Shown here in pieces: positions 30,690 to 48,530 of a stretch of 64,000 nucleotides of DNA (its first letter is position 1; the number at the start of each line of letters is the position of its first letter). The stretch comes from Calothrix sp. PCC 7716 (lineage in GTDB: Bacteria; Cyanobacteriota; Cyanobacteriia; Cyanobacteriales; Nostocaceae). The stretch lies in assembly GCF_019977735.1 (NCBI RefSeq), contig NZ_AP025018.1:6638580-6702579 (forward strand). The letters run 5' to 3'. Under the pieces are notes generated by a model that saw only the letters and a list, made by a program, of their open reading frames with translations, did no database searches and had not been told where the DNA came from. Both the position numbers and the translations under genes were made by a program.

Positions 30690-30743
30690 TACCCTAATTA
30701 ATTGACGGCGCGCATCCCATAACTTTTTAATTAAAATTTAGTA

Positions 30744-30932
30744 ATGGGTATGCTGGGAGGTATTGTAGCTGGGTCTTTATTACACGTGCGCTTTGTAGGA
30801 GTAACGCAAGCGATTCTGTTTACTTGTAAGAATAATATAGCCGCCCAATCTGCCTATAAAGCTATTGGATTTGTGCCAACCGGGGAAGAATACGGGTTGT
30901 TGCTATTACACAATGCTGTTGCAGGACGATAA
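30744..30932 (+). pseudogene. C-terminal remnant of a GNAT acetyltransferase
   Basis: 62 codons encoding 'AGSLLHVRFVGVTQAILFT', 'NNIAAQSAYKAIGFVPTGEEYGLLL', the typical motif-B end of GNAT N-acetyltransferases. The acetyl-CoA binding motif A (R/Q-x-x-G-x-G/A) is missing, so it cannot be a working enzyme. ATG 30744 is likely an internal methionine of the lost gene. Confidence 0.65.
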
Positions 30933-31169
30933 TTTCAACATTTGAGCTTTGAACGTTATTTTTGATGTTTTCATAAGTCTATATAACTCAAATAATACGC
31001 GCTGAAACTAAATCCTTACGGCGCCAACGTCATAAATAACCGAATACTTAAATATCTAGACATACAGAAAATAGGCGCCTTTCTACAATTATCTGGTTGT
31101 AGAAAATTATGCACGCATCAATTCAAGGGATAATAGTTCCGGTGTGATGTATAAATGGAGGATTTTGAC

Positions 31170-31265
31170 ATGAACAGTTTTCGTTTTGTGCTAGCTGCTG
31201 CAAGTTTAACACTACTGAATGCAGGTGCCGCTTTAAATTATCCACTATTTCTAGCACAGACTTGA
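31170..31265 (+). pseudogene. Signal-peptide fragment related to the gene at 10870
   Basis: 31-residue frame 'MNSFRFVLAAASLTLLNAGA' to 'LFLAQT', stop TGA. It shares the start context and signal-peptide pattern ('M.SFRF.L...SL..LN.G') of the secreted protein at 10870-11466, but nothing of the mature protein remains. GGAGG is eight bases before the ATG. Confidence 0.5.
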
Positions 31266-31301
31266 AATTACTCAATCTACATATTTATACTTAATACTAC
31301 T

Positions 31302-31386
31302 TACTTGATTATTGTTCCGGAAAATTTGTAATATTATGCAGGAATCTATAAAATTAGCCTTCTGTGTAGAATTTAGAGGTGCCTGA
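31302..31386. repeat. Direct repeat flanking the island, left copy
   Basis: TGATTATTGTTCCGGAAAAT, then TATGCAGGAATCTATAAAAT and a GGTGCCTG end. The right copy at 42851-43000 has the same two blocks in the same orientation with ~65 bp inserted between them. Confidence 0.75.
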
Positions 31387-31794
31387 AATCATAACTGATA
31401 TATACCGATAGTATTACGTTGTTTAAGCCCATCAGAATAAAAGTCTTTACTGCGATTTCATAAATAATTTACATTACTTGAGTACATCAATTAAAATACA
31501 CAGTATAATTTCTAAAAGAGAGACTTGGTAATTGTATAAATACGAACTTTTGATATTACTGAGTTGAAGGCGTGCAAATTCTATCATTATCATAAAACTT
31601 ATATTATAAGCCTCATAAATACAATTTTTTGAGCTAAGTGGGAATGTATAATTATCAAATTTTTTTGTAAATTATATGATTTGATAATCTTAGGATATCA
31701 AATTTTATAACTAATTCCCAAGTTTTTAGATATATAAAAATTTAATCAGAGTAATTGATAAAAATGTTAATTAAATTACAAAATTATATGAAAG

Positions 31795-33183
31795 ATGAAG
31801 TTATCTAGTCAACAACGAAAAAAACTACAAGAAGCTTTAATTGATGCTTTTCCTAATGTTTCATCTTTAAAGCAAATGTTGTCACATGAATTAGATGAAA
31901 ATCTAGAAGTCATTACTGGTGAAGGAAAAAATTTACAAGATATTATCTTTACATTAATTCAAACAGCAAATTCTCAGGGATGGGTAGAGGGTTTAGTTTG
32001 TGCTGCACGCAAATATAATCCTGGCAACGTATTGTTAGAAACGACTGTTGAAGAATTATTAACATATCCAAAGAAAACACATGTATGTTTTAAAGAAAAA
32101 AAGCAAACAAAGCTGTTTCCAATATCTTCTCAAACGCTATCAAACCCATTTGTAGCAGCAGGAATGATTCAAGAGTCTTGGCTATTCGTGGCTCGTAGTT
32201 CGGAATTACAAGCTTTGGTTTCGCGCATGACTGGCGCCCAGCCAACAAGTGTGAACGTTGTTGGTGCAAAGCGAATAGGTAAATCATCATTGCTATATCA
32301 TTTCTATCTTACCTGGGAGCAGCGAGTTTTAGACCCAAGTAGATACACTGTAATTTATTTATCATTACAAAGTGTACAATGCCAGTGTGAGAATAATTTT
32401 TATAAAACTATTGCTCAAGAATTATTAACTCGTCCAAGCATACTAGCAAAACAATCTATCTGCGATATATTGACCAAAGAAACAATTGACAGAATGTTAT
32501 TTACACTAATAATGACAGAGTGTAAGAAGCAGAATATTTTACCAGTAATTTGCTTAGACGATTTCAAACAATTGTTTAACCATAAGAATGAATTTGATGA
32601 TAGATTTTATGACAATTTACGTTCTTTAATGGACAACAACGTTTTAATGCTTATAGTAGCTACAGATAAAGAATTAGATTTATACCGTAACAAACATGGT
32701 TTAACTTCTTCTTTTTTTAATTTAGGTCATATACTTAGGCTAAAACTATTTAATGAAGAAGAAGTTAAAGATTTATTATCCTTACCAGCTTCTACTATAC
32801 CTAATTATTCGCCTACTTTAGGTATACGTGACCAAGAATTAGTTAAAGAATTAGGTGGAAATCATCCCTTTTTGCTTCAGCTAGCAGCAAATTTAGTTTG
32901 TGAAGCACGTCAGCATAAATATGATGAGATTTGGATAAGAAAACAGTTTAAATTTCAACGTAATAGACTACCTTATTCTACAAATATTAAACAAGATTAT
33001 AAACATCCATTGCGTTCTATTAGATACTTTTTCTCAACAGTCGGTGCCTCTAGTTTCTGGTTAGTTGAATTATGGAATAACAGGAAAGATGTTGTATTTG
33101 GAGCAATATTTGTTACTCTCATAATTTATTGTCTACGCAATCCTAGTAAAATACAAAAATTTTTAGAGAATCTTTTAAATTGA
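31795..33183 (+). CDS. EAD1-AAA ATPase with C-terminal membrane anchor
   Basis: 462 residues. Residues 1-80 are Effector-associated domain 1: 'LSSQQRKKLQEALIDAFPNV.SLKQMLS.ELDENLEVITG' and 'QGWVEGLVCAARKYNPGN', nearly the same as the N-termini of the caspase and CHAT proteins at 43268 and 45176. Residues ~120-390 are an AAA/STAND-like ATPase: Walker A 'GAKRIGKSSLLYHF', Walker B 'VICLDDF'. A hydrophobic segment near the end ('VVFGAIFVTLIIYCL') should anchor it in the membrane. EAD1 acts as a homotypic adaptor that recruits EAD1 effectors. The next gene begins 3 bp after the stop, so the two are co-translated. ATG at 31795. Confidence 0.82.
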   Translation: MKLSSQQRKKLQEALIDAFPNVSSLKQMLSHELDENLEVITGEGKNLQDIIFTLIQTANSQGWVEGLVCAARKYNPGNVLLETTVEELLTYPKKTHVCFKEKKQTKLFPISSQTLSNPFVAAGMIQESWLFVARSSELQALVSRMTGAQPTSVNVVGAKRIGKSSLLYHFYLTWEQRVLDPSRYTVIYLSLQSVQCQCENNFYKTIAQELLTRPSILAKQSICDILTKETIDRMLFTLIMTECKKQNILPVICLDDFKQLFNHKNEFDDRFYDNLRSLMDNNVLMLIVATDKELDLYRNKHGLTSSFFNLGHILRLKLFNEEEVKDLLSLPASTIPNYSPTLGIRDQELVKELGGNHPFLLQLAANLVCEARQHKYDEIWIRKQFKFQRNRLPYSTNIKQDYKHPLRSIRYFFSTVGASSFWLVELWNNRKDVVFGAIFVTLIIYCLRNPSKIQKFLENLLN

Positions 33184-33186
33184 TTT

Positions 33187-35976
33187 GTGGGAATAATGTT
33201 TAAACGTTCAAAACTTATTGGCTTGCAAATTGCTACTATCACCAGCTTTGCAATTACATCGTTGATACTGGGAGTTCGGCATTTAGGTTTGCTACAATCA
33301 TTTGAATTAGGCGCCTATGATCACATGTTAATAAGTCGTCCAATAAAGCCCCTTGATGAGCGCTTGTTATTAGTAACGATAACGAAGGAAGATAGACAAA
33401 CCTTTGGCGACCCATTATCAGTGACAACAGTTAATAAGTTAATAACAAAATTAGAGTCTTATCAACCGCGTGTTATTGGTCTATACATTAACGATGTTTC
33501 TTCGGAGAAAGGTTTAGGCACTTTAAGTGTGGATAAAAGTAAGCTATTAGCTTCCTGCACGTTCAGTAGTTACAAACGCTCTGAAACTCCTCCACCATCA
33601 GATTTACCCTTAGAAAATATCGGTTTTAGTGATATCATACCTGATTATAGTGACCTTACTATTCGCCGCGCTTTGTTATTTGCGAGTTCAGATGATGATA
33701 AAGAATGTGTTACTCGTTATTCTTTTGCCGCATTAGCCTCATTAGTTTACTTAGAAAAACAAGGTTTTAAGTCTACTTTTAATAAAAATAAGAGTTGGGT
33801 TTTAGGTGACAAGGTTATACCTAAATTAAAAGCTAAACCTGGTAGTTACCAAGATATAGACACACGTGGGCATCAAATCTTGATCAATTACCGTCACCCT
33901 AACTCTTTAGCTCGTAAAGTTACGTTAAAACAGGTTTTAAACGATAAAATTAATTTTAACTGGGTAAAGGACAAGTTAGTTATTATCGGTGACATAGATT
34001 TTAATAATAAGCTTTTTACTCCTTATAAAGCCTTACTACCAAATCAATTAAGTGGAACGCCAGGGGTATTAATCCAAGGACAAGTAGCAAGTCAAATTCT
34101 CAGCACTGTTTTAGACGGACAACAACAAATTTGGTATTTATCTGATTGGGCTGAAATTGTTTTAATTTTTACCTTTTCAATAGTAGGAGCTTTTATTGCT
34201 TGGAATTTACGGCCCTCCTTTTTAAATATAAGTTTAATCGTTGGAAGCAGTATTGCTAGTTTATATTTTGTTTGTCTTGTTGCCTTTATACAGCAAAGTT
34301 TTTGGCTACCTCTCGTTCCGTTTATTTTTGCTTTAATTTTAACTCAAATAACGGTAATAATATGTTGTAAATTATACTTGTATCCTCTTTTTTCTCGACG
34401 ATTTTTTGAAGATTATCTAAAAAATGCAGAGACTGCTCAAGATGAAATAGAAGCCCTTATACACTCAAGTAATCATAATCTTCAAACAGTAGCAGCTATT
34501 GCATTAAATAAAATTGCTGTAAATATTCTTATACGCTGTCAGACTATGAGTGATATTGCTGGCATTCGCTTTCAGTTATCTTGGATTCCTTCACCAACAC
34601 CAAAACAAATTGGTACTACATTACCTCAACTACTAAGTATTAGTGAAGATGTATGGGCATCAACACAAACTACTGGACTTTCCCAACGTAATGAGTTACT
34701 CAAGCGTCCAATTAAAGCATTACAAAATTTATTAAAAAGTCTGGCTTTTGAAAAAAGTTCACAAACAGCAGGTGCCCTTCATGAGGTATGTAGTAAGTGG
34801 TTGAAAATTTTAGAAACAGCACAACGTACTTTACAAGAGCAAACTTTACATTCACAGGAAATACAGCAAGTTTACGTAGCGGGTAATGCGTTAGACCCAG
34901 AGACGGCAGAGTATCGCTTCAAAGGACGGGTTGATATTTTCCGTGAAATCGAAACTTTGACACTTATGGAACAACCACCTGTGTTACTAATGTATGGTGG
35001 AAGACGCACAGGTAAAACTTCGACACTCAAGTATTTACCTTACCGAGTTGGCTCTACGATTCTACCGCTGCTTGTAGATTTACAAGGCGCCGCATCTGCG
35101 ACTACGCTCGAAGGATTGGCAAAAAACTTGGTGACACAAATTATTGAAGCTGGGCGCCGTCTACCTCGACGTTTAGACTTGCCTTATCCAAGTTTCCTTC
35201 AAAATAACAAACTGCATCTAATGGGTAAGTCCCGCTTTACTGTTCAACAAGATGTGTTTATAGATTTGCAAGACTGGTTTGCAGAAATTGAACGCGCGCA
35301 TCCTGAAAAACGCTTTCTTCTTTGTCTTGACGAATTTGAACGTTTAAGCGAAGTTATAAGCGCAACAAATAGTCGCGTCCCCCTTAACTTTCTCCGTAAT
35401 ATTCTGCAACATCGTAGACAGTGGATTTTACTTTTTAGTGGTTCGCATACATTTGATGAGCTTCCCAACTATTGGAGCGATTATTTAATAAATACTCGTA
35501 CTATACGTGTTAGTTTTTTGGATGAAGAATCTGCTCGTAGTTTGATTACAGAGCCAGTAAAAGACTTTCCAAACATCTACCAACAAGGCGCCGTGGATAA
35601 GATTATTGAACTTACTCACTGTCAACCTTATCTTATCCAATTAGTATGTTATGAAGTCGTAGAATTGCTTAATCGTGAAATCCGAGCTAAAAAACGGCAG
35701 GCAAGTAACATCACAGCGTCTATTAATGATATTGACTCGGTTATACCTATTGTTTTAGAAAGGGGTAATCAATACTTCCGCGAGTTATGGTATAGCTTCA
35801 AAGAGCCGGAAAGAGATTACCTTCATGGTTTAACTAATGGCAAAAATCCAATAGAAACTGATAAAATGATTATGCGAAGGTTAATACGAAAGGAAGTATT
35901 GAATCAGGAAGGAAACAAGTTTCAAGTACCTCTGGTACAAAAATTCATTGAACAAATAATTTCCGAGGGAGACTAA
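33187..35976 (+). CDS. CHASE2 sensor-AAA ATPase membrane protein
   Basis: 929 residues from GTG 33187 (or ATG 33196). An N-terminal membrane segment leads into a CHASE2 domain (~35-310, 'FELGAYDHMLISRP...DERLLLVTIT', 'INYRHPNSLARKVTLKQVL', 'VIIGDIDFNNKLFTPYKAL'), an extracytoplasmic sensory module, followed by three membrane segments (~320-400). The cytoplasmic part ends in an AAA ATPase: Walker A 'YGGRRTGKTS' (~605), Walker B 'RFLLCLDEFERL' (~710). The usual CHASE2 output is a kinase or cyclase; here it is an ATPase of the same kind as its partner upstream. The pair looks like a signal-sensing two-ATPase complex feeding EAD1 effectors. Domain calls secure; pathway inferred. Confidence 0.82.
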   Translation: MGIMFKRSKLIGLQIATITSFAITSLILGVRHLGLLQSFELGAYDHMLISRPIKPLDERLLLVTITKEDRQTFGDPLSVTTVNKLITKLESYQPRVIGLYINDVSSEKGLGTLSVDKSKLLASCTFSSYKRSETPPPSDLPLENIGFSDIIPDYSDLTIRRALLFASSDDDKECVTRYSFAALASLVYLEKQGFKSTFNKNKSWVLGDKVIPKLKAKPGSYQDIDTRGHQILINYRHPNSLARKVTLKQVLNDKINFNWVKDKLVIIGDIDFNNKLFTPYKALLPNQLSGTPGVLIQGQVASQILSTVLDGQQQIWYLSDWAEIVLIFTFSIVGAFIAWNLRPSFLNISLIVGSSIASLYFVCLVAFIQQSFWLPLVPFIFALILTQITVIICCKLYLYPLFSRRFFEDYLKNAETAQDEIEALIHSSNHNLQTVAAIALNKIAVNILIRCQTMSDIAGIRFQLSWIPSPTPKQIGTTLPQLLSISEDVWASTQTTGLSQRNELLKRPIKALQNLLKSLAFEKSSQTAGALHEVCSKWLKILETAQRTLQEQTLHSQEIQQVYVAGNALDPETAEYRFKGRVDIFREIETLTLMEQPPVLLMYGGRRTGKTSTLKYLPYRVGSTILPLLVDLQGAASATTLEGLAKNLVTQIIEAGRRLPRRLDLPYPSFLQNNKLHLMGKSRFTVQQDVFIDLQDWFAEIERAHPEKRFLLCLDEFERLSEVISATNSRVPLNFLRNILQHRRQWILLFSGSHTFDELPNYWSDYLINTRTIRVSFLDEESARSLITEPVKDFPNIYQQGAVDKIIELTHCQPYLIQLVCYEVVELLNREIRAKKRQASNITASINDIDSVIPIVLERGNQYFRELWYSFKEPERDYLHGLTNGKNPIETDKMIMRRLIRKEVLNQEGNKFQVPLVQKFIEQIISEGD

Positions 35977-36502
35977 TAATGAATTTCGGATCAGGAAAGG
36001 TCGCGCTAGTAGAATAGTTGATTTTGCTCTTCAACTCCAATTACTCATAACTACACGCATTATTATTATGTTTGAATACTCTCTTGTCATTTTGAATTTG
36101 TCTTCGACAATGAATGAATTTTGAATTTTCCCGGTATAGGGACATGAATGTTCATGTGCGTAAACGTAGTTTTCCCTATTTGGTAGCAAATTTGAACGTA
36201 AACGTAAACGCAGTTTTCCCTATTTGGTAGTTTTCCCGCACTATGAAGTGAGTGGCGCCTGTCCGAATTGCAATTACAAGTTTTCAAGAAAAGAACTTTT
36301 ACGAACTGAGTTCATATGTCCAACTTGCGGCTGGAGTGATGAATGATTGGTAGGCGCCTAAAATTAGGTAGTGAGTAGTGCCTAGAATATCAATGCTTGT
36401 TACAGGCACCTATTAAGGTGTTGTAATCCTTTTTAGTAAATATACTGACATGCAAAGTAATGATTATACTTAAAATAAGATTTTTACGAATAAACAAAAA
36501 CT
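35977..36502. other. Intergenic stretch filled with dispersed repeats
   Basis: Two copies of CGTAGTTTTCCCTATTTGGTAG-like text (core GTTTTCCCTATTTGGTAG) at about 36170 and 36213, the 'GAAGTGAGTGGCGCC' end at 36245-36259, and the 105-bp repeat copy at 36254-36358. No gene is seen. Confidence 0.55.
36254..36358. repeat. ~105-bp repeat bounded by GGCGCC, copy 2
   Basis: Same block as 17713-17818. One frame reads 'ICPTCGWSDE', a zinc-knuckle-like string, suggesting the repeat may derive from a gene, but both copies are otherwise untranslatable. Confidence 0.7.
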
Positions 36503-36796
36503 ATGCCCAAAAGTGAACCTCCAATCATGAGGTCTTCTTCTGCAAGACAGTCGCGGTGGCATTACTGGGTGTTTGTCCCGCTTTGCTCGCTTGTGTACAC
36601 TGCGTTATGCTTTATTTTTATTATGGCTGCTTGGGGGCTGCGCGGTGAATCAAAACCGTGGTGGTATGTGGTAATCCAGGTGCTAACAATACCTGGTGTG
36701 TGGTTGCCCCCTTACATCGGCGCCCCGTTGTGGGGTGGAGTTATGGGTTTCGTCCTCGTCCGACTGAACCGGAAAATTCAAAGGCGCCGTTTATAA
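36503..36796 (+). CDS. Small membrane protein, two transmembrane segments
   Basis: 97 residues with two hydrophobic spans ('YWVFVPLCSLVYTALCFIFIMAA' and 'VVIQVLTIPGVWLPPYIGAPLWGGVMGFVLV') and a basic C-terminal end 'RLNRKIQRRR' read through a GGCGCC. No family is recognised. It faces the next gene tail to tail, 29 bp apart. Confidence 0.5.
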   Translation: MPKSEPPIMRSSSARQSRWHYWVFVPLCSLVYTALCFIFIMAAWGLRGESKPWWYVVIQVLTIPGVWLPPYIGAPLWGGVMGFVLVRLNRKIQRRRL

Positions 36797-36825
36797 AATA
36801 ATGAGAAACACTACAAGCGGATATA

Positions 36826-37629
36826 TCAAAGTTTATTATTTGTTGAAGAGGCGCCTTGTTTATTAAAGGTTTGAATTTTTGTTCTAAGCCATTTCCATTT
36901 AGCAACAACAAAAATTGATATTCCAGCTAAGATTGCTCCAATACCTGTAGAGTTTTCAATAACCCATTTCCAGTTTTGATTTAACCAGCTAGTTGGACTA
37001 ACCGATACATTAATCGCGCGTTGGAAAGTTTTCAAATCAACATTTTCAGTCGAACCGTTTTTTCGCACGCGCGCATAAATAGACATATATAGCTTTTGGT
37101 CACCTGCCTCTGTTGGGGTAACGCTCCAACGCCATGCTGCGACACCATTTTGAATTAAAAATCTATTTTCTTCATTCAGAGATTTTGTGTTAAAGTTGGC
37201 GCCTTCTAGTCGCGCTCTCAAGAATGAGCTAACCTGTAATTGGTCTGTCTCCGTTTTCCCAGATTGGTTTCCAAGTTCTTTTTTTAAATCACGTCGTAAA
37301 TCATCGCTAATTACTACTTCCACTACTTCAGCATCGTTAACCTTCATTTTATCTGGAACGTTAAAAGCTATTTGTCCAGGTCTGGTTTCGACAACTTTCT
37401 TCAAAGCTTCATCGGCGCCGTCTGGTATTGAAGTTTTATCTACAGATTGCGCTGGTGGAGTTGTTGCGGCGCCTGCATCTGTTGGTTCTGCTCTTGGTAC
37501 TGAGGAAGAGCCTGCGTCACCTCCTGCTCCTCCTAATTCTCCTCTATCTAAAATAGGTTTAGTAATTATAATTACATATATAACACTTATAAAAAGTAGT
37601 ACTAAAATCCAGAGACGCTTGTTTATCAT
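36826..37629 (-). CDS. Bitopic membrane protein with extracytoplasmic domain, unknown
   Basis: 267 residues. An N-terminal membrane segment ('LWILVLLFISVIYVIIIT'), a Gly/Ala/Pro-rich linker, an ordered domain (~75-215: 'PGQIAFNVPDKMKVNDAEVVEVVIS', 'VSSFLRARLEGANFN', 'AAWRWSVTPTEAGDQKLYMSIYARV') and a C-terminal membrane segment ('IGAILAGISIFVVAKW'). The middle resembles a beta-sandwich of the kind that carries ligand or stress signals across membranes, but I do not recognise a named family. It lies 115 bp after the stop of the divergent-strand helicase's downstream side, within the conflict island. Confidence 0.5.
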   Translation of the reverse strand: MINKRLWILVLLFISVIYVIIITKPILDRGELGGAGGDAGSSSVPRAEPTDAGAATTPPAQSVDKTSIPDGADEALKKVVETRPGQIAFNVPDKMKVNDAEVVEVVISDDLRRDLKKELGNQSGKTETDQLQVSSFLRARLEGANFNTKSLNEENRFLIQNGVAAWRWSVTPTEAGDQKLYMSIYARVRKNGSTENVDLKTFQRAINVSVSPTSWLNQNWKWVIENSTGIGAILAGISIFVVAKWKWLRTKIQTFNKQGASSTNNKL

Positions 37630-37743
37630 TGCTTTTAAATATACTTACAGAATTTCAGTAAATATCTACAAGTTGCTTATTACACATTTCGGTTGACTCA
37701 GGCGCCTGAAAGCACTAATTATTAATTTATACAGGCGCCAATT

Positions 37744-40700
37744 TTAACGACACACTCGAATTTGAGGAATAACAACAAACCAATCTTCCTTAATTTCTCC
37801 AGATATATCATCTATAGTCAAATGGCGATATATACTTTTAACAGTTACCTCACCTGAAAGGAATTCAAACTGCCCTGGTACACACCCTTTCTTAAATAAC
37901 TCTTTGTTTGCTCTTTGAGATAAGGCGCCAACACATTGACCATCTGTACTATAAATATTCCAACCATTATTGTTTGGATTTACTTTCATTGACAATTCGG
38001 CGCCTTCTGTTAAATTAACAATGACTTGCTGATTTTTCTTCGTGTTGTAATTGCTTAGAAAAATATCCCCAGGAGTTAAATCAAAATAGAACCACTTCTC
38101 TGGTAAAGAGTCAGTCCTTACGGTAAGTCTTTCTGGAACGGCGCCTGTTTCATGCACAAACTGTGATTGCTTAGTAGTACATATAGTGAGTTCTTCCTTT
38201 GCGCGTGTCATTGCTACATAAAACAATCTCCGCTCAGACTCAATCTCCGTAGCATTCGTACTAAAACCGTCACCGAGTAATATAACGTTTCGGAATTCAA
38301 GACCTTTGGCGCCGTGACAAGTTGTTACGAGTACAGCGTTTTCATCTCTAGCAGCTTCAAAAGTTTCATTGAATTCAAATACTGTGGTGAGAATATCAGC
38401 GGCACTGATAGGTAGTGCTTCGTCCTCAATACCGTATCCTCGCTCAATATCAATATCACGCGCGATTTTGAGGAGTACTTGTACTGTTGGTTCGGTTAGT
38501 TGGCGCCCCCATTTGGTAAAACAGGTTTCAAACCAACTCAAAATTGACTTGTCTGGTGTAAGGACTTGATGTTTCTTAACTTTCAATTGGTCGATAAGTC
38601 TACATGTGATGTAATTTCTAACCAGTTTGATACCATCTTTCCTTAAAGTACAAGTTGGAACACCTGCTCTCTCTAACAATAATCGAATCGCATCTAAATT
38701 ATCCCAGCGTCTCGCTAGTACTGCTATATCCTTCATAGAGGCGCCTTGTTCTATCCGAGATAAAATGCGCTGTTGTATCCATGTGGCTTGACTTTCAATA
38801 CTTCCAAATGTATAAGCCTCAACTGGAAATCCTTTATAACCTCGGCGCCCACTATCTATACGTACTTGTTCTTCTTCTTTTTGCTTACAACGTTGTTTAT
38901 TATTGGAAATTAATTTATTTGCAGCTGCAATAATTGATTCAGTAGAACGATAATTTTCATTAAGTAATAATTGCTTTGCTTTATACTCTTCGGTAAATTG
39001 AATTATATATTTAGTGTCAGTACGTCTAAACTCATAGATATTTTGGTCATCATCACCAATAACACAAAGATTTATTTGTACTGAACGTTCGGTATCGTCA
39101 GAGTCATTTAACCCAGCAATTAACTTAATTAAGCGGTATTCAGATTCGCTAACATCTTGATATTCATCGACAAATATATGTTCCAACTTACCAAGTAGTT
39201 GAATTCGTCGCTGCTGCGTATCGTCTGACTCTTCCTCTGATTCCTCTCCTTTCTCTAGGAGCGAACATGCTTCTGTTATTAAATTATCAAAATTAAACTC
39301 TTGAGACTTAATACTTTCCCCAAGAGTACGACCTAAAAGCGCTAATGATAAACCGTGGAAGGTAAACACACGAACGCGCGCTGCTAAATTTCCAATTAAT
39401 TTCTGTAACCTAATTCGTATTTCTGTAATCGCATTACGGTTATAAGCTAAGACTAATATACTTTGTGGCTCAACTCGTTTTACTTTTACTAGATAAGCGA
39501 TACGATGGACAATTGTTCGAGTTTTTCCTGACCCTGGACCAGCAATTGCAGCTAGTGCAGCATCGTTAGATAAAACAATTTCTTTTTGAGACTCGTTGAG
39601 TGTATCTATAATATTACTATAATCATTTGGAATTATAGGACGTATCGTTTCCTCACCTGTGGGTAGTTGATGAGTTTGGATAAATTCTTCTTGAGCTTTA
39701 CCAAAATAATCATCTATATATTGCAGGCGCCGTTCTGGTGGAACTTCCCCGTACTTCAACATGTAATGAGTGCGTCTCGTTTGCTCATCGTAACGAGATT
39801 TTACTTGAGGAAAACCTTTGCTAACTTTGTTAACACTGGCGCCTTTAATAACGCGCACTTTTAGAGAATGCTGTAATAAATTAAGACCTTCACTCAATCT
39901 AATAATTTGTCTTTGGTGTAACCATAGCAGCATGTCTTCTAACTCTTTGCTGCTCCAAACTAACTGCGTACTTTCTGTAACTTCGGTTGCTAATCGTTCC
40001 AAATCATATGATAAAGGTAAACGGGCGCCTTTTTTATCTCCCAATGCAGCATAAAATCTATCGAGTATATCTGATGATAATATTTGATGGCGGTCTAAAT
40101 TATCACCAATATTTATTTTGCTGAGTTTAACAACATCGCGCGCGACGTGGTGTAATTTAATCCATTTCTGACTAGTCCAACCTTCTAAAATATCCATCAG
40201 TACTGATGCTCTAAGTTTCTTAGAGTTATCAGGGTCAAGAAGGAAAGCCAAACCACGTAAGTTAACTTGAATATCAGGCGCCTCACCCAACATCTCAGTA
40301 AGTACTTCTAATAGCTGTTTTTCTAACTCACGTTTCCTGTCGTGTAGAATGCGTGCGTCTCCTGTAACACCCTTGGTTATCATCACCGCAATAGGTATTT
40401 CAAGCGAACAAATACCTGCTGTCTTCAACTCTCTAATTCTTGAACTAAGTTCTTTAGTACTAATACCAGATTCATCACTAAGTCTATCAATAGGAAAATG
40501 TTCGTTCGTTTGGGTAAAATATATTTTAGCGTTATGCATTGCTAAAATCAAACTCTCGAACAATTCTATTTCTGATTGAGGAAAGTTTTGAGCTTTGCTG
40601 TGTTTTACAAAATGTTCGCGAGATTCGTCGTAAGTGTTATGTAGTAATTCAAACTTGATGACGGTAGATAAATTCTCCGCGCGCTCTAATAAACCGAATT

Positions 40701-42750
40701 TTTCTAAGTGATGTAAAGCAACTTTTATTTTAGTGTCGAGTTGTTCTGGCGCCACATCAAACTCCTCATCAAAATCACCTTCGCGTAATATTTCGTTGGC
40801 TGTCACCCAAAACCAGTCTTCGGAGGCGCCTTTAAGAATGCGGTTACGTAAATATCTTGTTGAGATAAAAGTATTCTTTAAATCTTGTTCGCTGAGTTGG
40901 TTTAAACTTTGGAGGAAAAATATTGTGTCAGCGTCTTTGGGATCGTAGAGCAAAGTACAGTAAGAAGGTTGACCATCACGACCCGCGCGTCCAGCTTCTT
41001 GAACATAACCTTCCAAGTTGGAACTTAGCGTGTGGTGGATAACCGCGCGCACATCTTTACGATTAATGCCCATTCCAAAAGCACAAGTCGCAACGACTAC
41101 GTTTAATTCACCTGATTTAAAGGCTTGTAGGACTTCATATTTTTCGTGCGTTGATAATTTACCGTGGTAGTACCTTGCATCAATATCACTTTGATTCAAT
41201 AGTTTAGCTAGCTTTTCAGCGTTCTTGCGAGTTGTTGTATATACAAGAGTACTGCCACCATAAGTTAATGCTTCTTTAACTTTATCAATTAGAGTTTTTT
41301 CTTTGTTACCAACCGTTGGGATAACTTCAAATGTCAGATTCGGACGGGTTGTTTCCCCATCAATTGTAGTACTGATGTTTAAATCTTGTTCAGCGAATAG
41401 CTTTTTAATATCTTCTACGACGCTTTGAGTTGCTGTTGCAGTTAGTAGAGCTAACATTGGTTTTGGTAACTGGCGCCGTTCATATAGTTCTTTGATAAAT
41501 TTAGGAACATAACAATAATCTGGTCTGAAGTCATGTCCCCACTGACTTATACAGTGCGCTTCGTCGAGTATCCATAGTACAGGTGGACGCTGTTCTAGTA
41601 GCGCACGGATACTCATTGAACGTAGTTGTTCGGGACTAATATATAGCAGGCTCTTGTTACCAGAGCGTAATTCTTCTAAACGCAGGCGCCGTTCCTGTGC
41701 AGTTAAATTACCATTTATGTAGGTAGAGAAAAACAAACCAGTTTCTTCTAAGTCAGCTACCTGGTCAGCCATTAATGCTTGTAATGGAGATATGACGACA
41801 GTTAAAGCTTTTTGTCTATGATGGAACATCAAAGCTGGTAGTTGGTAACACAACGATTTGCCACCACCAGTAGGCATCATTATTAAAGGATTTTCTCTAT
41901 TAATTATTGACCTAACAGCTTTTTCCTGTAATGGTCGGAAACCAGGAATACCAAAATGCTCTAAGTGGGTAGAAATAGCAAACTTATTATTTATCAGCGG
42001 GAATAGATTGTTAAGTACATCTTGGAATGGCGCCAAGTTAGAAAGCCAGTTAGAAAAAGCTTCGCGCTCGTTATTTAAGTTGGTTTCATAATTCCAAGCC
42101 AATAAGGCAGCTGCACATAGTCTGGTATCAAAATCATAGGTTTGTGGACTTAATAATAATTGATGCAGGTAAGATTGATTAACACCCAGCAACATCTCTG
42201 TTGGTAGTTTTTCAATTCTTACTGGCGCCAGTTTCCAACCTAAGATGTCACAAAATAGTTGCTTATACGCGCGCGAAGCTTCTTCATATCCACAACCAAG
42301 TAACCAAATAATAAGATGTCGTAACGACTCCGGTTTATTTTGTAACGATTCTATTTGCACGTGCAGCAATAACCGAGTTGCACGCGCGTCTTGCAGAGGG
42401 CTATTTGAACTATATTCGCTCTGCTTATATTCTTTATTCAACCTATGTGAGGGGAGTAGAGGAAATGCCAGAATTGATAGTTCTAATGTATCTATAATGT
42501 TCCAGTTGGATAAGAGAGGCGCCTGTTTTACTAGGTGTGGATGGTCAAAACGTCGGAAATTATGACCGCAAACACTCAAACCGCTATTTTTTAGATGAGT
42601 CAGTTTATCGTAGGTTTCTGCTACCTTATCGCCCTCTAAGTCTTGTGCTATCTCAGGGGACACGAAACCTAGACGGAATATATTATCTTGGGCGCCGACT
42701 TCTAAATCTAGATATACATAGGTTGAATCAATTACTGGCAATGCTTCCAT
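37744..42750 (-). CDS. Exonuclease-RecQ-UvrD helicase fusion
   Basis: 1668 residues, three machines in one chain. Residues ~8-130: DEDD 3'-5' exonuclease-like domain with 'YLDLEV' (D15, E17), 'GHNFRRFDHP' (D69) and 'PLQDA' (D121); the DEDDh histidine position holds Asn116. Residues ~265-640: RecQ helicase, Walker A 'MPTGGGKS' (292-299), 'LDEAHCISQWGHDFRPDY' (~397) and 'VQEAGRAGRDGQ'. Middle ~640-1050: RecQ C-terminal-like helical parts. Residues ~1055-1560: UvrD/Rep helicase, 'GPGSGKT' (~1075), 'VDEYQDVS' (~1195), 'GDDDQNIYEFR', 'TCHGAKGLEF', 'VAMTRAKEEL'. Both motors look intact. Role: DNA repair or anti-invader unwinding and degradation; the location among EAD1 genes favours defence. About 20 GGCGCC sites show long residence here. 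Confidence 0.9.
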   Translation of the reverse strand: MEALPVIDSTYVYLDLEVGAQDNIFRLGFVSPEIAQDLEGDKVAETYDKLTHLKNSGLSVCGHNFRRFDHPHLVKQAPLLSNWNIIDTLELSILAFPLLPSHRLNKEYKQSEYSSNSPLQDARATRLLLHVQIESLQNKPESLRHLIIWLLGCGYEEASRAYKQLFCDILGWKLAPVRIEKLPTEMLLGVNQSYLHQLLLSPQTYDFDTRLCAAALLAWNYETNLNNEREAFSNWLSNLAPFQDVLNNLFPLINNKFAISTHLEHFGIPGFRPLQEKAVRSIINRENPLIMMPTGGGKSLCYQLPALMFHHRQKALTVVISPLQALMADQVADLEETGLFFSTYINGNLTAQERRLRLEELRSGNKSLLYISPEQLRSMSIRALLEQRPPVLWILDEAHCISQWGHDFRPDYCYVPKFIKELYERRQLPKPMLALLTATATQSVVEDIKKLFAEQDLNISTTIDGETTRPNLTFEVIPTVGNKEKTLIDKVKEALTYGGSTLVYTTTRKNAEKLAKLLNQSDIDARYYHGKLSTHEKYEVLQAFKSGELNVVVATCAFGMGINRKDVRAVIHHTLSSNLEGYVQEAGRAGRDGQPSYCTLLYDPKDADTIFFLQSLNQLSEQDLKNTFISTRYLRNRILKGASEDWFWVTANEILREGDFDEEFDVAPEQLDTKIKVALHHLEKFGLLERAENLSTVIKFELLHNTYDESREHFVKHSKAQNFPQSEIELFESLILAMHNAKIYFTQTNEHFPIDRLSDESGISTKELSSRIRELKTAGICSLEIPIAVMITKGVTGDARILHDRKRELEKQLLEVLTEMLGEAPDIQVNLRGLAFLLDPDNSKKLRASVLMDILEGWTSQKWIKLHHVARDVVKLSKINIGDNLDRHQILSSDILDRFYAALGDKKGARLPLSYDLERLATEVTESTQLVWSSKELEDMLLWLHQRQIIRLSEGLNLLQHSLKVRVIKGASVNKVSKGFPQVKSRYDEQTRRTHYMLKYGEVPPERRLQYIDDYFGKAQEEFIQTHQLPTGEETIRPIIPNDYSNIIDTLNESQKEIVLSNDAALAAIAGPGSGKTRTIVHRIAYLVKVKRVEPQSILVLAYNRNAITEIRIRLQKLIGNLAARVRVFTFHGLSLALLGRTLGESIKSQEFNFDNLITEACSLLEKGEESEEESDDTQQRRIQLLGKLEHIFVDEYQDVSESEYRLIKLIAGLNDSDDTERSVQINLCVIGDDDQNIYEFRRTDTKYIIQFTEEYKAKQLLLNENYRSTESIIAAANKLISNNKQRCKQKEEEQVRIDSGRRGYKGFPVEAYTFGSIESQATWIQQRILSRIEQGASMKDIAVLARRWDNLDAIRLLLERAGVPTCTLRKDGIKLVRNYITCRLIDQLKVKKHQVLTPDKSILSWFETCFTKWGRQLTEPTVQVLLKIARDIDIERGYGIEDEALPISAADILTTVFEFNETFEAARDENAVLVTTCHGAKGLEFRNVILLGDGFSTNATEIESERRLFYVAMTRAKEELTICTTKQSQFVHETGAVPERLTVRTDSLPEKWFYFDLTPGDIFLSNYNTKKNQQVIVNLTEGAELSMKVNPNNNGWNIYSTDGQCVGALSQRANKELFKKGCVPGQFEFLSGEVTVKSIYRHLTIDDISGEIKEDWFVVIPQIRVCR

Positions 42751-43267
42751 AACTCTTTACTTGTATACGATTTTCGTAATGAACGGTGCCTAGAAATAAC
42801 AATATCTGTATTATAAAGACACTTAGTTTACGTATATATACATGATGCTAGTTGCTTGATTATTGTTCCAGAAGATTTGTAATATTGATTATTGTTACAG
42901 TTTGTAAGGTCGATGCAGTGACTAATTTATATACTGTGGGTTTTATAGACATTATGCAGGAATCTATGAAATCAGCCTTCTATGTAAGAAGAGGTGCCTG
43001 GAAAAGAACACAAGTACCAAACGATTAGCTGCTTTGAGCTTTCGCACGCGTTGTAGGGATGGGGAAAGTTTCCGGAAATAGCAAGTTACTTGCTGTATGA
43101 ATACAAGTCAGTTAATTCACGCAAGTTGAGGCGCTTAAATTTTGTAGGTAGGCACAAAATCTATTTAAATAACAGAATTTTCTCTGATTTTTTTCAAAAT
43201 GAGAATTGCTGGGTACAGTTTTTCTTCCTGGTGATCAATTCCTTAACGTAACTTTCTGCACCACTGC
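42751..43267. other. Intergenic stretch with flanking repeat
   Basis: Contains the right flanking repeat (42851-43000). From 43000 to 43267 I see no gene or strong structure. Confidence 0.5.
42851..43000. repeat. Direct repeat flanking the island, right copy
   Basis: Matches 31302-31386 at both ends (TTGCTTGATTATTGTTCC; TATGCAGGAATCTATGAAAT) with ~65 bp inserted, which itself begins with a second TGATTATTGTTaCAG, i.e. a partial tandem copy. Confidence 0.75.
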
Positions 43268-45085
43268 TTATTTCACCCCTTCGTCTAATGGCGCCAGTGG
43301 TAAATTTAACTCGTGACTAGGAGAGAGGAATATATACTCGCCTTTATCATGCTTATTCAAACACCAAATACCAGGAGTTTGACGTAGACAATATTTTTCT
43401 GTGGGGATTTCGATTCTATCGCGTAAATATAAATATAATTCGGTGGCTGTAATTACACCATCTCCACTCTGTTGACCATTTTTGGCGGGAGGATAAGTAT
43501 CTGCAGCGCCTTCTAGTGCTTCTAACAGTGCAGCAGCAAAAGGAGAATGATTACCAACTTGCCCACGTTCTGTGCCTAAATTAAAGTTATCTAAGGCTTT
43601 CTGGTCGGAAGCTGAGGAAGTTATTATTTGCCATGCTGCATCTCGGATAAAACGGTCGTAGTGTTCTTGGTAGATAACTTCAGGTGATGTGATTAAATCG
43701 CGTGTACTCGACCAACGGAAGGCGCCTGCAAAGCAACAATCTAAAATACCTAAAAAATGCCGACAAGGTAATTTACTCAAAGCATCGTGCAACTTCGTCA
43801 TTGGTAAATAACTATTGGTATCACCCAGTTTCGCATCTTGGGGTATTAAGTAACCAGCAGGATCATCATCACTATTCAATGCGACTCCATGACCAGCAAA
43901 ATAAAATAATAAACGGTCTTGTTCGGTAACTTGTGCGGGTAATGTTTCCTCTAAAAGTTTATTTAAGTTACTTAGAGTTGCAACTGAATCTAAACATACC
44001 CAAGCTTGATATTTATGCTTCGACCGCAGAACTTCTACAAGTTTTTTAGCATCATTGACGGCAGTATTCAGGTGGGAAATTCCATTTTTGTAGTTATTTA
44101 TACCAATAACAAATGCTAAATTGCGCCCAAATTCTGAGCAGGCGCTAGTATCTTGGTTATTAGTAAGTTGTTGTGGTTTTAGCCTTTCGGTCTCAAGTTG
44201 TCTTCGATACCCAGATTCTTTTGGTGCAATAACTGACTGTTCAACTAATGCAACATCCTCATCTAATAGTCCTAAAAACTGTTGAAAGCTTTTTAAGCCG
44301 TTGCGGGCATATTCATTTAGGGGATAGGCAACGTTTATTGCCTTGGATAGCTCTTGCTTATAACGTTGCAGTTTTGCCTGATATTCTGCTTTTTCCTGCT
44401 CTTGGCGTAATCTTTCTGCTGCTTCCTGTTGTCGTTGGAGTTTTTCAGCTTCTTGTTGTTCAGCTTCCTTAAAGAGAAGAGCTATATCTTCATCTTTAAG
44501 CTGATAATGTTCTTGTAGTTTTTTCAAATCAGCTTTAGCCTTTTCTTTAAATGGATATCCTTGTTCATCTACCCATTTAGTAAAAACTTGCCTGTATTTA
44601 TCTAAATTTTCTCTATATCTTCCAAAAGGTTCTAATACTTCATCTCGGATTGTACGAACTTCTTCTTCTGTTAATTTTAGTTTTTTTTGTAAATCCTTTA
44701 ATATTTCCGATTCTCCATAAGTAATTTCTACATCCTCTGCAAATTCCTTAACCTTCAGACGGTACTCTGCTATAGCATCTTCCTTACTGCTGTTATACGG
44801 TGTTGGGGTTAGATTATTTGCGCGTAATTCAGTGGCGATTGCTTGTAGGAGTTGGTTTCCAGAATTATATTGAGAAGCTTTACAAACTAAATCTTTTATC
44901 CATCCCTCAGCATTTGCCACTTTTATTAAATTAAAAACCACGGTAGCTAAATCACTACCTCCAGCAACTTGGTTAAGATTTTTATCGAGCTTATACAATA
45001 ACATTCTTTCTAAGGATGCTTTATCAAGAAAAGCATCAATCAAAGCATTTTCTAAGTTTTCAAGCTGTTTACCAGATAATTTCAT
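43268..45085 (-). CDS. EAD1-caspase-like protease
   Basis: 605 residues. Residues 1-80: EAD1 ('LSGKQLENLENALIDAFLDKASLERMLLYKLDKNLNQVAG', 'GWIKDLVCKASQYNSGN'). Residues ~100-310: helical, charged repeats of the kind found beside cyanobacterial signalling enzymes ('YRENLDKYRQVFTKWV', 'YPLNEYARNGLKSFQQFLGLLDEDVALVEQ'). Residues ~325-600: peptidase C14 caspase-like domain, 'LAFVIGINNYKNGI', catalytic His in 'LLFYFAGHGVAL' and Cys in 'FLGILDCCFAGAF'. Both catalytic residues are present. Such proteases are execution enzymes released by EAD1-linked sensors, as the gene at 31795 would be. Start ATG at 45085. The CHAT gene lies 90 bp upstream on the same strand. Confidence 0.9.
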   Translation of the reverse strand: MKLSGKQLENLENALIDAFLDKASLERMLLYKLDKNLNQVAGGSDLATVVFNLIKVANAEGWIKDLVCKASQYNSGNQLLQAIATELRANNLTPTPYNSSKEDAIAEYRLKVKEFAEDVEITYGESEILKDLQKKLKLTEEEVRTIRDEVLEPFGRYRENLDKYRQVFTKWVDEQGYPFKEKAKADLKKLQEHYQLKDEDIALLFKEAEQQEAEKLQRQQEAAERLRQEQEKAEYQAKLQRYKQELSKAINVAYPLNEYARNGLKSFQQFLGLLDEDVALVEQSVIAPKESGYRRQLETERLKPQQLTNNQDTSACSEFGRNLAFVIGINNYKNGISHLNTAVNDAKKLVEVLRSKHKYQAWVCLDSVATLSNLNKLLEETLPAQVTEQDRLLFYFAGHGVALNSDDDPAGYLIPQDAKLGDTNSYLPMTKLHDALSKLPCRHFLGILDCCFAGAFRWSSTRDLITSPEVIYQEHYDRFIRDAAWQIITSSASDQKALDNFNLGTERGQVGNHSPFAAALLEALEGAADTYPPAKNGQQSGDGVITATELYLYLRDRIEIPTEKYCLRQTPGIWCLNKHDKGEYIFLSPSHELNLPLAPLDEGVK

Positions 45086-45175
45086 ATGTTAAATGTAAGC
45101 TGCTCATATATTGAATTTGGAGTTTTTTAAAAATATTTACTTTTGAAGATAATTATAAAATTAATTCTTTCATTG

Positions 45176-46081
45176 TTAGGGTTTACCTGTCTCATCTTTT
45201 TTTAACACTGGTATAGAACCTTGTGAAACGTTTTCCAATGCAATGGCTACCATACCTTCGTCAAAGGCTCGTTGAAATACATCTTGATTTCCTGAAGTTT
45301 TGTAACCCAATCCATCATAAAATCCTTTAGCAAACTCAATCGCGGCTCTGTCTTCTATCGATTGATTCATGCCAATTGCATAATTAATAGATTTGCTAAT
45401 TGCGATAGCAGTTTTTTCTGAATGGCAAGCATTGAGCAGCACACACTTCACATAACCAGCATGTAACTTAAATAGTGATGCCAGCCCTTCTGGAGAGACA
45501 GGTTTATTGTTTCCGCCATCATCCTCTAATAGCAAGCTGCCATCTTCCAAACCATGTCCACAAAAATGAACAATTTGAGGTTGTTCTTCTGCAATAGCAC
45601 GACGGATATCTTGAGGACGTACAGCAGTTCTAATACGAATTTCAAATAAATCTCGATTTGCTGCTCGTCGTATAGCGTCTTCAATTTCTCTAATCTCTTT
45701 GTCCAAACGCAGACCGTGAGGAATTGCTGTTAAAACTAATATTTTTTGTAGCTGATTAGTTTCTTTTGGGGAATTGTTAGGTAAGGGAACAGGAAATTTT
45801 TCTGGATTAGGATTTAATAATAGTTCTTGGGCAATAGCTTTTAGTTTTAGGTTTCCAGGGTTGGAATTACACGCAACACGAACTAAATCTTCAACCCAGC
45901 CCTGAGAATTTGCTGCTTGTATTAATTTAAACACAATATCTTCTAAACTCCCTTCGCCTGCAATTGCTCTTAGATTTTTATCTAATTCATATGCCAACAT
46001 TCGCTCTAGGGACGCTATATCAGGAAAAGCGTCAATTAAAGCCAATTGTAGTTCTTTACGTTGCTGACCGGATAAACCCAT
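45176..46081 (-). CDS. EAD1-CHAT protease
   Basis: 301 residues. EAD1 at residues 1-80 ('LSGQQRKELQLALIDAFPDIASLERMLAYELDKNLRAIAGEGSLED', 'QGWVEDLVRVACNSNPGN'); CHAT-family (separase/caspase-like) protease at ~110-300 with 'ILVLTAIPHG', catalytic His in 'QIVHFCGHGLEDG' and Cys in 'VKCVLLNACHSEKTA'. AAGGA is nine bases before the ATG at 46081. It is the first gene of a two-gene unit with the caspase-like gene. The EAD1 domain is closer to that of the EAD1-AAA ATPase than to the caspase's, so it may be that ATPase's main client. Cleavage target unknown. Confidence 0.9.
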   Translation of the reverse strand: MGLSGQQRKELQLALIDAFPDIASLERMLAYELDKNLRAIAGEGSLEDIVFKLIQAANSQGWVEDLVRVACNSNPGNLKLKAIAQELLLNPNPEKFPVPLPNNSPKETNQLQKILVLTAIPHGLRLDKEIREIEDAIRRAANRDLFEIRIRTAVRPQDIRRAIAEEQPQIVHFCGHGLEDGSLLLEDDGGNNKPVSPEGLASLFKLHAGYVKCVLLNACHSEKTAIAISKSINYAIGMNQSIEDRAAIEFAKGFYDGLGYKTSGNQDVFQRAFDEGMVAIALENVSQGSIPVLKKDETGKP

Positions 46082-46151
46082 ATTTATTAATCCTTATATT
46101 TTCACTACAAGTTGGAAATTATTGTGGCTAGTTCAAATGAACGCGCTCATA

Positions 46152-46328
46152 CTACTTGGTTACTTTGGCTCTTGTCACAGATTCGTCAAACACAACCCCA
46201 GATGTAGAACCATCATTAGCCCTCAACCATTGCTCTATCAACTTAGCCACAACTTGACTCATCTTCAGCCCCCGTAAAGCACAGACAGAATGGAATCGTT
46301 TCTTGAGGTCATCCGCGATACTAATATG
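46152..46328 (-). CDS. Ribbon-helix-helix protein
   Basis: 58 residues from the ATG at 46328: 'MHISIADDLKKRFHSVCALRGLKMSQVVAKLIEQWL', a beta strand and two helices of the Arc/ParG type, then a polar tail. Upstream codons would add a hydrophobic run and are judged noncoding. It precedes the EAD1-CHAT gene by 70 bp on the same strand and could repress it; an antitoxin or partition role is equally possible. Confidence 0.6.
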   Translation of the reverse strand, partial: HISIADDLKKRFHSVCALRGLKMSQVVAKLIEQWLRANDGSTSGVVFDESVTRAKVTK

Positions 46329-46555
46329 CATAAGCAATAAGATGATAACGAATATAAGTATTATTACCACAAAGCAACAAATGTACAAACCTGTATTTAT
46401 ATAGGGGATGAACGGAACAACTTATGCACTGCTCTATAGCTCCTTCCACCTCTAATCTCAAAACACAGTACCGCAACTTGTATTTTATGGCAGTACTAAA
46501 TACTTAGCTAGTGTGCATGTATTGAAAATAAGGGCAGCATTTTATCTCAGCAGAA

Positions 46556-46926
46556 AAGTTTACACTTCCATTCAAAGGTAAGCTAGAAGAAGATAATCGT
46601 TGGTGATTATGGCTTCTTCAATACTTTGGTCAGAATTAGAACAAGAGTGCAATTCTAATTTTTCTGTAGATGTAGAGGCGCCGATTGAATCGTTTAGGAT
46701 GGCGTTGGGTACATTATTTATCCAATAAAAACTAGGTATGAGTGATAAGGAAACAGTAGAACTAATTAAGGAAAACCCTTATCTACAGTATTTTGTTGGT
46801 TTGCCGTCTTATAGCAATGAAGTTCTCTTAAATGTATCAATGTTAGCTAATTTTCGTTCAAAAATTAGTGACGAATTAATCAATAAAGCAAAACGACAGG
46901 TAATGAATAAAATTCGCTCTTCCTGA
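46556..46926 (+). pseudogene. 5' fragment of an IS1182-type transposase
   Basis: Three in-order pieces of the N-terminus of an IS1182-family DDE transposase: 'KFTLPFKGKLEEDNRW', then after a one-base shift 'SSILWSELEQE...FRMALGTLFIQ', a TAA stop, and 'KLGMSDKETVELIKENPYLQYFVGL' to 'INKAKRQ'. The catalytic domain is absent. A GGCGCC lies inside ('VEAPIE'). Confidence 0.75.
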
Positions 46927-47172
46927 AATCTTCTTATTCCATTATAAAATTTAAACTGCTTTACTGGCGCCCACAACAGAGCAATTTCTCTCCAATAGTT
47001 GAGGTAGGTGTCCTGCTCGGAATTATAGTTAATAGTTGTGGTGCCAATCTCAAACTACTCCATTGGCATTCAAAAACGGGAGCAATCTGTTGGGATGCTA
47101 ATGTAAAAGCTTCCTGCAATTCTTGACTGTTCGCCCCCCAGAATATAGCTTGTTTTCCTCTTACATCATTAC
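46927..47172. other. Intergenic DNA, origin unclear
   Basis: One minus-strand frame contains 'FWGANSQELQEAFTLASQQIAP', which looks coding-like but has no supporting start or family. I call no gene. Confidence 0.4.
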
Positions 47173-47204
47173 AATTCGCAATTCGCAATTCGCAAGTCGC
47201 AATT
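47173..47204. repeat. Heptamer short tandem repeat, left arm
   Basis: Four to five units of AATTCGC (one variant AAGTCGC). It is the inverted partner of 47421-47452; the two enclose about 216 bp. Heptameric STRRs are typical of filamentous cyanobacteria. Confidence 0.85.
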
Positions 47205-48436: not shown

Positions 48437-48444
48437 GGAGCTTC

Positions 48445-48498: not shown

Positions 48499-48530
48499 AT
48501 ACAGGTGCCTCTAATTTCTATGGTTTTTTC

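Follow-up and report, generated by a model that had tools for sequence, protein, structure and literature searches.

Calothrix sp. PCC 7716 carries, in a 64,000-nucleotide (nt) stretch of its genome ('the window'; contig NZ_AP025018.1, positions 6,638,580–6,702,579), a block of six genes in which three modules lie side by side: a pair of ATPase genes, A and B; a putative operon for two proteases, EAD1-CHAT and EAD1-caspase; and a gene for a nuclease-helicase, H, followed by a smaller gene, S. The adaptor domain EAD1 is present on A and on both proteases, and through it the ATPase pair may be coupled to them, a reading on which we are evenly divided. Judged by comparison with other genomes, the block is a composite and not a conserved island: A and B form a unit of their own, and the EAD1 of A is a recent graft. 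On a bolder and less likely reading, the graft has newly connected an older receptor–ATPase pair, until then free of EAD1, to a network of caspase and CHAT death proteases, to which the adjacent nuclease-helicase would have a link of its own.

The A–B pair and its grafted adaptor

A and B keep company well beyond the window. Within the order, several of 148 sampled genomes have the two side by side, with other N-termini; a scan of named genomes for the core of B then gave 59 loci (L125 and L127 among them are identical copies from one organism), nearly all cyanobacterial, the others coming one each from Thermoflexus, Parabeggiatoa, Anaerolineales, Magnetococcales and Desulfobulbaceae. In 46 of the 59, B is preceded within 1.5 kb by an A gene of the same orientation, which overlaps B or lies no more than 100 nt away in 36 and stands off by 264–1447 nt in 10. 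Of the 13 left over, 11 reach less than 200 bases beyond B on its upstream side; the other two do contain sequence there, but no A. These arrangements strongly support A and B as a single unit, and a preliminary description of the window was right to treat its EAD1-AAA and CHASE2-AAA genes as a linked pair. The two ATPase cores are probably related, since a profile of A finds the B open reading frame (ORF), at 4e-9 to 4e-6, in nine of the 59 loci, though at that threshold it does not find the B of the window. At one locus (L258:6695-8884), two A cores occur within a single 729-amino-acid (aa) ORF immediately 5' of B.

The adaptor on A is a different matter. DNA homology (blastn) with Calothrix sp. 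NIES-4105 starts at window base 32128, the first codon of the AAA core, and continues through B; the upstream 333 bases of A, which encode EAD1 and a linker, lie outside it. The A core of NIES-4105 is 75% identical to that of the window and has no EAD1, and the CHASE2-bearing B is common to both. Among the loci compared, A's EAD1 is closest in DNA to the 5'-terminal part of an EAD1-CHAT gene (L245; 83% over 216 nt), and the window's own EAD1-CHAT matches at 74%. An EAD1 tree of 87 columns and 49 rows, most of its forks unresolved and so used just for broad placement, puts A's EAD1 among mostly CHAT-type EAD1s. Because homology breaks at the start of the AAA core, and because the best matches are to EAD1-CHAT genes, we conclude that the EAD1 of A was recently grafted onto an EAD1-free core, and that the donor was likely a gene of the EAD1-CHAT type. 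The same ATPase pair thus exists with EAD1, in the window, and without it, in NIES-4105, and since the two share the CHASE2-bearing B and a closely similar A core, the idea that an adaptor can rewire a sensor becomes directly testable.

Among the loci examined, EAD1 is fused to A solely in this genome. No EAD1 ORF occurs at any of the 59 A–B loci (flanks up to 10 kb; 30 of the loci extend 6 kb or more to either side of B), and 20 loci around close A homologues, eight of them the same places as in the 59 and 12 new, contain neither EAD1 nor CHASE2. Across 217 genomes of the family, the A core (62 genomes) and EAD1 (72) are unassociated, occurring together in 21 against 20.6 expected; the A-positive count is 62 of 79 matched genomes, 17 that matched through EAD1 alone being dropped and broken copies kept. 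In three congeners the parts of the block lie apart, except for CHAT and H in G206, which are ~15 kb from one another. The preliminary description had proposed a five-gene island, to be recognized by co-occurrence in other genomes; on this evidence we reject such an island as a conserved unit, and since it failed that comparison, the link between A–B and EAD1 is best regarded as a graft that was observed in no other genome.

The input side of the pair has changed, too. Aligned B proteins usually begin with a glycine/valine/alanine-rich region of several transmembrane segments, and among the loci examined CHASE2 is found on B only in the window and in NIES-4105 (one of the 59 B loci). Since the other aligned B proteins have the multi-transmembrane region and CHASE2 is limited to these two, the input module of B was probably swapped for CHASE2 in the line leading to them. 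The CHASE2 match itself is secure (PF05226, 141 bits, above cut-off). The ATPase of B, called AAA in the preliminary description, is faint in Pfam (ATPase_2, 8e-4, under cut-off), yet its Walker A and B motifs are conserved in B and in 30 aligned relatives, and the modelled domain has its top matches in an archaeal walker-type ATPase and Orc/Cdc6, followed by numerous other AAA+ proteins. The model is poor across most of residues 1–395, and its reading is confined to the part beyond the CHASE2/transmembrane region. Counting from the GTG start of B, the gap between A and B is 3 nt; the true start is likely the ATG three codons on, at 33196, which matches the start of B in NIES-4105.

In A, AAA_35 is above cut-off (41 bits), and Walker A (residues 157–165) and Walker B (252–256) are kept in aligned relatives. 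Structural comparison of the A model by Foldseek returns Orc1/Cdc6 and archaeal walker-type ATPases foremost, with the plant NLR Sr35 at rank 2 (root-mean-square deviation 21), CED-4 at rank 38 and the Apaf-1 apoptosome at rank 46, at modest template-modelling scores of 0.3–0.5. Both A and B therefore have the Cdc6/Orc-like AAA+ core and Walker motifs of a STAND NTPase, the fold match being modest; at the C-terminus, the B model has, by eye, a winged-helix-like end, A shows neither winged helix nor repeats, and a Pfam scan found no repeats in either protein to form a superstructure. The membrane anchor formerly ascribed to A comes down to one weak hydrophobic segment (433–451; score 1.62 against a threshold of 1.6).

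Few other genes travel with the pair. No neighbour cluster besides A and B themselves occurs in more than 17 of the 59 loci; the 17-locus cluster, which might have linked A–B to peptide exporters, was rejected as a single-linkage grouping of a broad ABC-exporter family. Of four genes 5' of A in NIES-4105, three are unmatched in the other loci, and the fourth has a single match there, at 28%. No defence gene was recognized among the 30 largest neighbour clusters, judged by sequence starts without domain search. Such company would suit a physiological sensor of stress or of the envelope better than a conflict system, one whose EAD1 recruits proteases for regulated proteolysis and not for death, and PMC2853523 lists CHASE2 as a domain of transmembrane receptors, kinases for instance. 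The patchy presence of A, in 62 of the 217 genomes, and several copies interrupted by stops suggest an accessory gene instead, and we regard the physiological role as improbable.

The EAD1 protease operon

EAD1-CHAT lies 90 nt 5' of the caspase gene; H follows the caspase gene after 517 nt, and S follows H after a further 114, all four on the minus strand. Both protease domains exceed their Pfam cut-offs (caspase, PF00656, 66 bits; CHAT, PF12770, 41 bits), and the catalytic His and Cys are present in each and in nine aligned relatives of each.

We fetched 20 loci for comparison. Six (L238–L243) were picked for an adjacent EAD1 gene, and the other 14 came from the upper part of the list of EAD1-CHAT matches; L241 is without an EAD1-CHAT gene, and the CHAT match at L242 is weak (8e-9). 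A second EAD1 gene lies 79–190 nt 3' of EAD1-CHAT in eight of the 20, and at L239 the partner is 37 nt upstream; among the 14 not picked for adjacency, four (L247, L248, L249 and L253) have a second EAD1 gene that follows in the same orientation, no more than 190 nt on. The partners, scanned for domains except in L242 and L248, are a varied lot: EAD1-NACHT (L238, L239, L253), EAD1-GUN4 (L240), EAD1-TPR (L243, L249) and EAD1-VMAP-C (L247). From these recurrent tandems, the CHAT and caspase genes of the window appear to be a two-gene effector operon of EAD1 proteases, an instance of a recurring unit in which EAD1-CHAT is joined by a variable EAD1 protein, and the tandems likewise support the preliminary description in casting CHAT and caspase as EAD1 executors.

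NTPases and CHASE2 turn up in this company as well. At L250 (5099-7186), EAD1, CHAT and NB-ARC, with an APAF-1/Dark-like winged helix, are fused in one protein, which so combines a protease and a death-type adaptor with an NTPase of the apoptosome type, and at L251 EAD1-CHAT is fused to NACHT. At L245, 1.1 kb separates EAD1-CHAT from a divergent EAD1-TRADD-N-pentapeptide gene, and a stand-alone CHASE2 gene lies 56 nt downstream of EAD1-CHAT (L245:6664-8897), a second link between CHASE2 and EAD1. Because of the EAD1-NACHT tandems, the NB-ARC and NACHT fusions and L245, there are precedents for an NTPase with EAD1, or a CHASE2 receptor, in the vicinity of EAD1-CHAT, and A–B plus caspase would be the window's version.

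As an aside, a 68-bp segment at the 3' terminus of the caspase gene (window 43212–43279) is a small interspersed repeat, 92–100% identical to three places in G206.

The nuclease-helicase and its possible role as sensor

H was described beforehand as an exonuclease-RecQ-UvrD enzyme. Its helicases stand: DEAD/Helicase_C and UvrD are above their Pfam cut-offs, and the RecQ-type call comes from NCBIfam. The exonuclease part is based on motifs (LDLE, GHNFRRFD and DA(R/Q)(A/V)TR), which are kept in all 10 aligned full-length H proteins, the window's included, and which we take to be those of a DEDD-type exonuclease; no exonuclease family in Pfam matches H at E 0.01.

To judge by gene neighbourhoods, H is better tied to EAD1, caspase and CHAT than A–B is, and by independent evidence. 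H matches at E < 1e-150 in 20 of the 217 family genomes, 17 of which were counted as H-positive (three have the UvrD part or a short piece only); the flanks of one genome, G264, were not included. NIES-4105 has two copies. The closest to the window's (86%) is followed by a split homologue of S (73% and 95%), and an EAD1 gene is transcribed away from this copy (L218); the second (60%) is followed, 30 nt on, by a single gene of 649 codons in which caspase, EAD1 and CHAT are joined (L231:6698-13702), possibly a two-gene nuclease-helicase/protease system in itself. In G206, EAD1 genes lie ~13 kb from H (L223/L224). With the window set aside, 3 of 16 H loci thus have an EAD1 gene in the flank against 0.155 expected (Poisson 5e-4, in a test made post hoc and assuming random placement).

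It could be, then, that H, and not A–B, senses for the EAD1 proteases: CHAT, caspase, H and S would be one same-strand unit triggered by foreign or damaged DNA, and A–B a mere neighbour whose EAD1 was acquired for other reasons. A metacaspase of Acaryochloris marina fused to DEXDc and HELICc helicase domains (PMC2853523) would be in keeping with this. All three EAD1-linked H loci belong to the window's own genus, however, and to EAD1-rich genomes (11 and at least 22 matches), so that the linkage is one within the genus; the other 13 H loci have no EAD1 in the flanks examined, and H and EAD1 are unassociated by presence across the 217 genomes (together in seven, 5.6 expected, p 0.59). Nor does H have a constant effector gene, a possibility that we rejected, since downstream genes vary among loci: a helicase-like ORF of ~950 aa, read from the sequence without domain search, lies 3' of H at L220, L221 and, truncated where the contig stops, L222, and a common run of other genes at L226, L228 and L229. 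We consider H as sole sensor rather unlikely.

Does EAD1 couple the modules?

The reading that we prefer, in which EAD1 couples A–B to the proteases, implies the following course of events, each functional step of which we infer. CHASE2, to go by the domain, would let B sense a ligand or envelope signal. A and B, given their fold and pairing, would act as an ATP-dependent, heteromeric, membrane-tethered switch that clusters the EAD1 of A. Contact between EAD1s would then, on the principle published for such domains, bring in CHAT and caspase and activate both by proximity, and the ensuing proteolysis would stall or kill the cell. H may supply a signal of DNA damage or foreign DNA to the same proteases. 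The EAD1-NACHT tandems and the NB-ARC and NACHT fusions have an NTPase at the very position that A would fill. More broadly, A–B might be a modular signalling core, its input exchangeable (multi-transmembrane for CHASE2) and its output rewirable by EAD1, that here forms part of a death circuit with two inputs, membrane and DNA; this we offer tentatively, as something possible but short of likely. The trigger-and-executor circuit of the preliminary description thus keeps its ATPase pair and its effector operon and loses its five-gene unit, and its role in abortive infection or programmed death is a prediction.

Several things weigh against coupling. The main one concerns the likeness of the EAD1s, which the preliminary description had called almost identical. 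They are not: pairwise identities are 48, 57 and 62%, which is background, the median for 604 CHAT-X pairs of EAD1s, each pair drawn from different loci, being 59% (interquartile range 53–63). The EAD1 pairs of nine tandem operons elsewhere are 63–95% identical; in the window, neighbouring genes have EAD1s that resemble each other no more closely than EAD1s from unrelated loci do, and nothing points to partners that co-evolved. (The higher likeness of neighbouring EADs has been published as a tendency, not a rule: Kaur 2020, PMC7159879.) A and B are transcribed in the opposite direction to the protease genes, the EAD1 part of the A model is of low confidence (predicted local distance difference test 49–72 by block), and A–B and EAD1 are, as already mentioned, unassociated by presence. 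Finally, other EAD1 proteins in the genome could equally control the proteases: this genome of 12.37 Mb has nine EAD1 matches, three of them in the block, within ~14 kb, and elsewhere an LRR-ROC-COR-EAD1 protein, an LRR-like EAD1 protein, a CHAT-EAD1 protein and a 198-aa EAD1 gene. The LRR-ROC-COR GTPase (L090:7542-10457), with its EAD1 at the C-terminus, is another candidate controller of proteases, and the 198-aa gene is followed, 38 nt on, by one for an nSTAND1-WD40 protein of 1228 aa (L091:6410-10731).

Perhaps, then, there is no dedicated circuit at all, and defence-type genes have simply gathered in a stretch rich in mobile elements, their EAD1s being part of a pool of adaptors common to the whole genome, in which none has a specific partner. 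Background-level identities and the dispersal of the modules in congeners would both fit, as would the genes at 49.9–55.1 kb: a TnpB-like IS605 OrfB (49918–51246) and then, in a row, two tyrosine-recombinase genes and a DUF6262 gene (51321–55062), a trio that we take to be of the Tn554 type. So would stretches of window 12741–17810 that are 79–91% identical to NIES-4105 contig C3, where they lie beside H–S in a different order; H–S and this stretch may derive from one plasmid-borne block. What speaks the other way is that A has kept an in-frame, open EAD1 beside two EAD1 proteases. The chance of A's EAD1 falling within 15 kb of another EAD1 locus is about 1% (a post hoc figure that assumes five other loci placed at random), and because of this we do not think that three EAD1 genes in ~14 kb are random scatter. 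Flanking repeats bounding the block were likewise sought and rejected, no exact 16-mer being common to 29501–31795 and 46082–49900, the only flanks tested. A gathering without a circuit seems to us unlikely.

Relation to known systems

EADs have been proposed, from comparative genomics, to act like the death domains of animals, with unrelated sensors recruiting the same killers (PMC7159879, PMC8195603). The cores reported in these papers (Kaur 2020 and 2021) include vWA-MoxR with VMAP, iSTAND, iSTAND2 or TERNS3, and also the FtsH ternary, GAP1-GTPase, NucA-trypsin, EACC1 and TRADD-N systems; CHASE2 figures once in the excerpts of them that we cite, as the variable C-terminus of an EACC2-caspase protein. 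The whole word 'CHAT' is absent from the text of Kaur 2021, and no word starting with it occurs in that of Kaur 2020. Like EAD-coupled conflict systems, the block comes from a filamentous cyanobacterium and has, in one neighbourhood, EAD1 (PF19955; curated cut-off 24.2 bits) both on an NTPase, A (89 bits), and on caspase-fold effectors (caspase 83 bits, CHAT 102). Unlike them, it has a tandem AAA pair with CHASE2 or multi-transmembrane input, which those excerpts do not describe, and its EAD1s are not closely related. No match to vWA, MoxR or VMAP was found at E 0.01 in the six proteins of the block (the remaining genome was not searched), so the block does not have the MoxR ATPase, vWA protein and third component of a vWA-MoxR ternary system.

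The nearest published precedent for an EAD1-bearing A beside EAD1 effectors is the STAND NTPase-FGS/NPCBM systems, in which an EAD is N-terminal on NACHT, MNS clade (the Npun2340/2341 family) or nSTAND1 proteins and other copies are on effectors, caspases included; the FGS type is preponderant in cyanobacteria (PMC8195603). A has no detected FGS or NPCBM lectin domain, in contrast, and would work with a second ATPase, B, that bears the membrane input. As a lead, A and B may belong to the MNS clade. The EAD1-CHAT tandems with EAD1-NACHT (L238, L239, L253) and the fusions with NB-ARC (L250) and NACHT (L251) similarly join an NTPase and a CHAT protease by EAD1, but the window's NTPase is of the AAA_35 type, is paired with a CHASE2-ATPase and is on the opposite strand. 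Cyanobacterial metacaspases combine CHASE2, NACHT, GUN4 or helicase modules with caspase-fold proteases too, only by direct fusion without EAD1, and in single cases for CHASE2 (Trichodesmium) and helicase (Acaryochloris), as far as the account in PMC2853523 goes. CHAT is a triggered immune effector in SAVED-CHAT (PMC11417357) and in Craspase/TPR-CHAT of type III CRISPR (PMC9729208), where the trigger is a cyclic nucleotide or guide RNA, as against an EAD1-linked ATPase here.

No complete PADLOC-DB system is present in the block, and a known PADLOC anti-phage system was thus rejected; single-protein matches are to DpdF/GajB-type and other helicases (H) and to caspase, chat and SAVED_CHAT. In keeping with the preliminary description, literature searches (subscription papers, figures and source-data tables were outside their scope) found neither this combination nor a role for the A–B cassette. 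In gene content, then, the block appears to be a variant of EAD-coupled conflict systems with a new combination of parts.

Gene layout and surroundings

ORF and Pfam checks found the genes, and most of the domains (EAD1-AAA, CHASE2-AAA, nuclease-helicase, EAD1-caspase, EAD1-CHAT), where they had been placed. Two features absent from the first description are gene S and the convergence of the A–B pair on the other four genes (Table 1).

Table 1. Features of the block, in window coordinates.
Feature	Position	Strand	Product and domains
A	31795..33183	+	462 aa; EAD1 (aa 1–88), linker, AAA_35/STAND-like core (aa 112–394), one C-terminal hydrophobic segment
Grafted segment of A (EAD1 + linker)	31795..32127	+	Missing from the A homologues of the 59 + 20 loci
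B	33187..35976	+	At most 929 aa; CHASE2 (aa 25–335) with flanking hydrophobic segments, helical linker, ATPase, winged-helix-like C-terminal end
S	36826..37629	-	267 aa; hydrophobic segment near both ends
H	37744..42750	-	1668 aa; exonuclease-like motifs, RecQ-type SF2 helicase (264–610), UvrD-type SF1 helicase (1048–1533)
EAD1-caspase	43268..45085	-	605 aa; EAD1 (1–87), charged, helical-looking middle, C14 peptidase (321–575)
EAD1-CHAT	45176..46081	-	301 aa; EAD1 (1–87), CHAT (125–258)

Elsewhere in the window, a gene at 8406–10043 matches the CRISPR protein family GSU0054, presumably Csb2, just short of threshold (20.6 bits against a cut-off of 21). Directly 5' of A, at 27448–30689, lie genes for a DnaB-type helicase and a Dam methyltransferase (PF05869).

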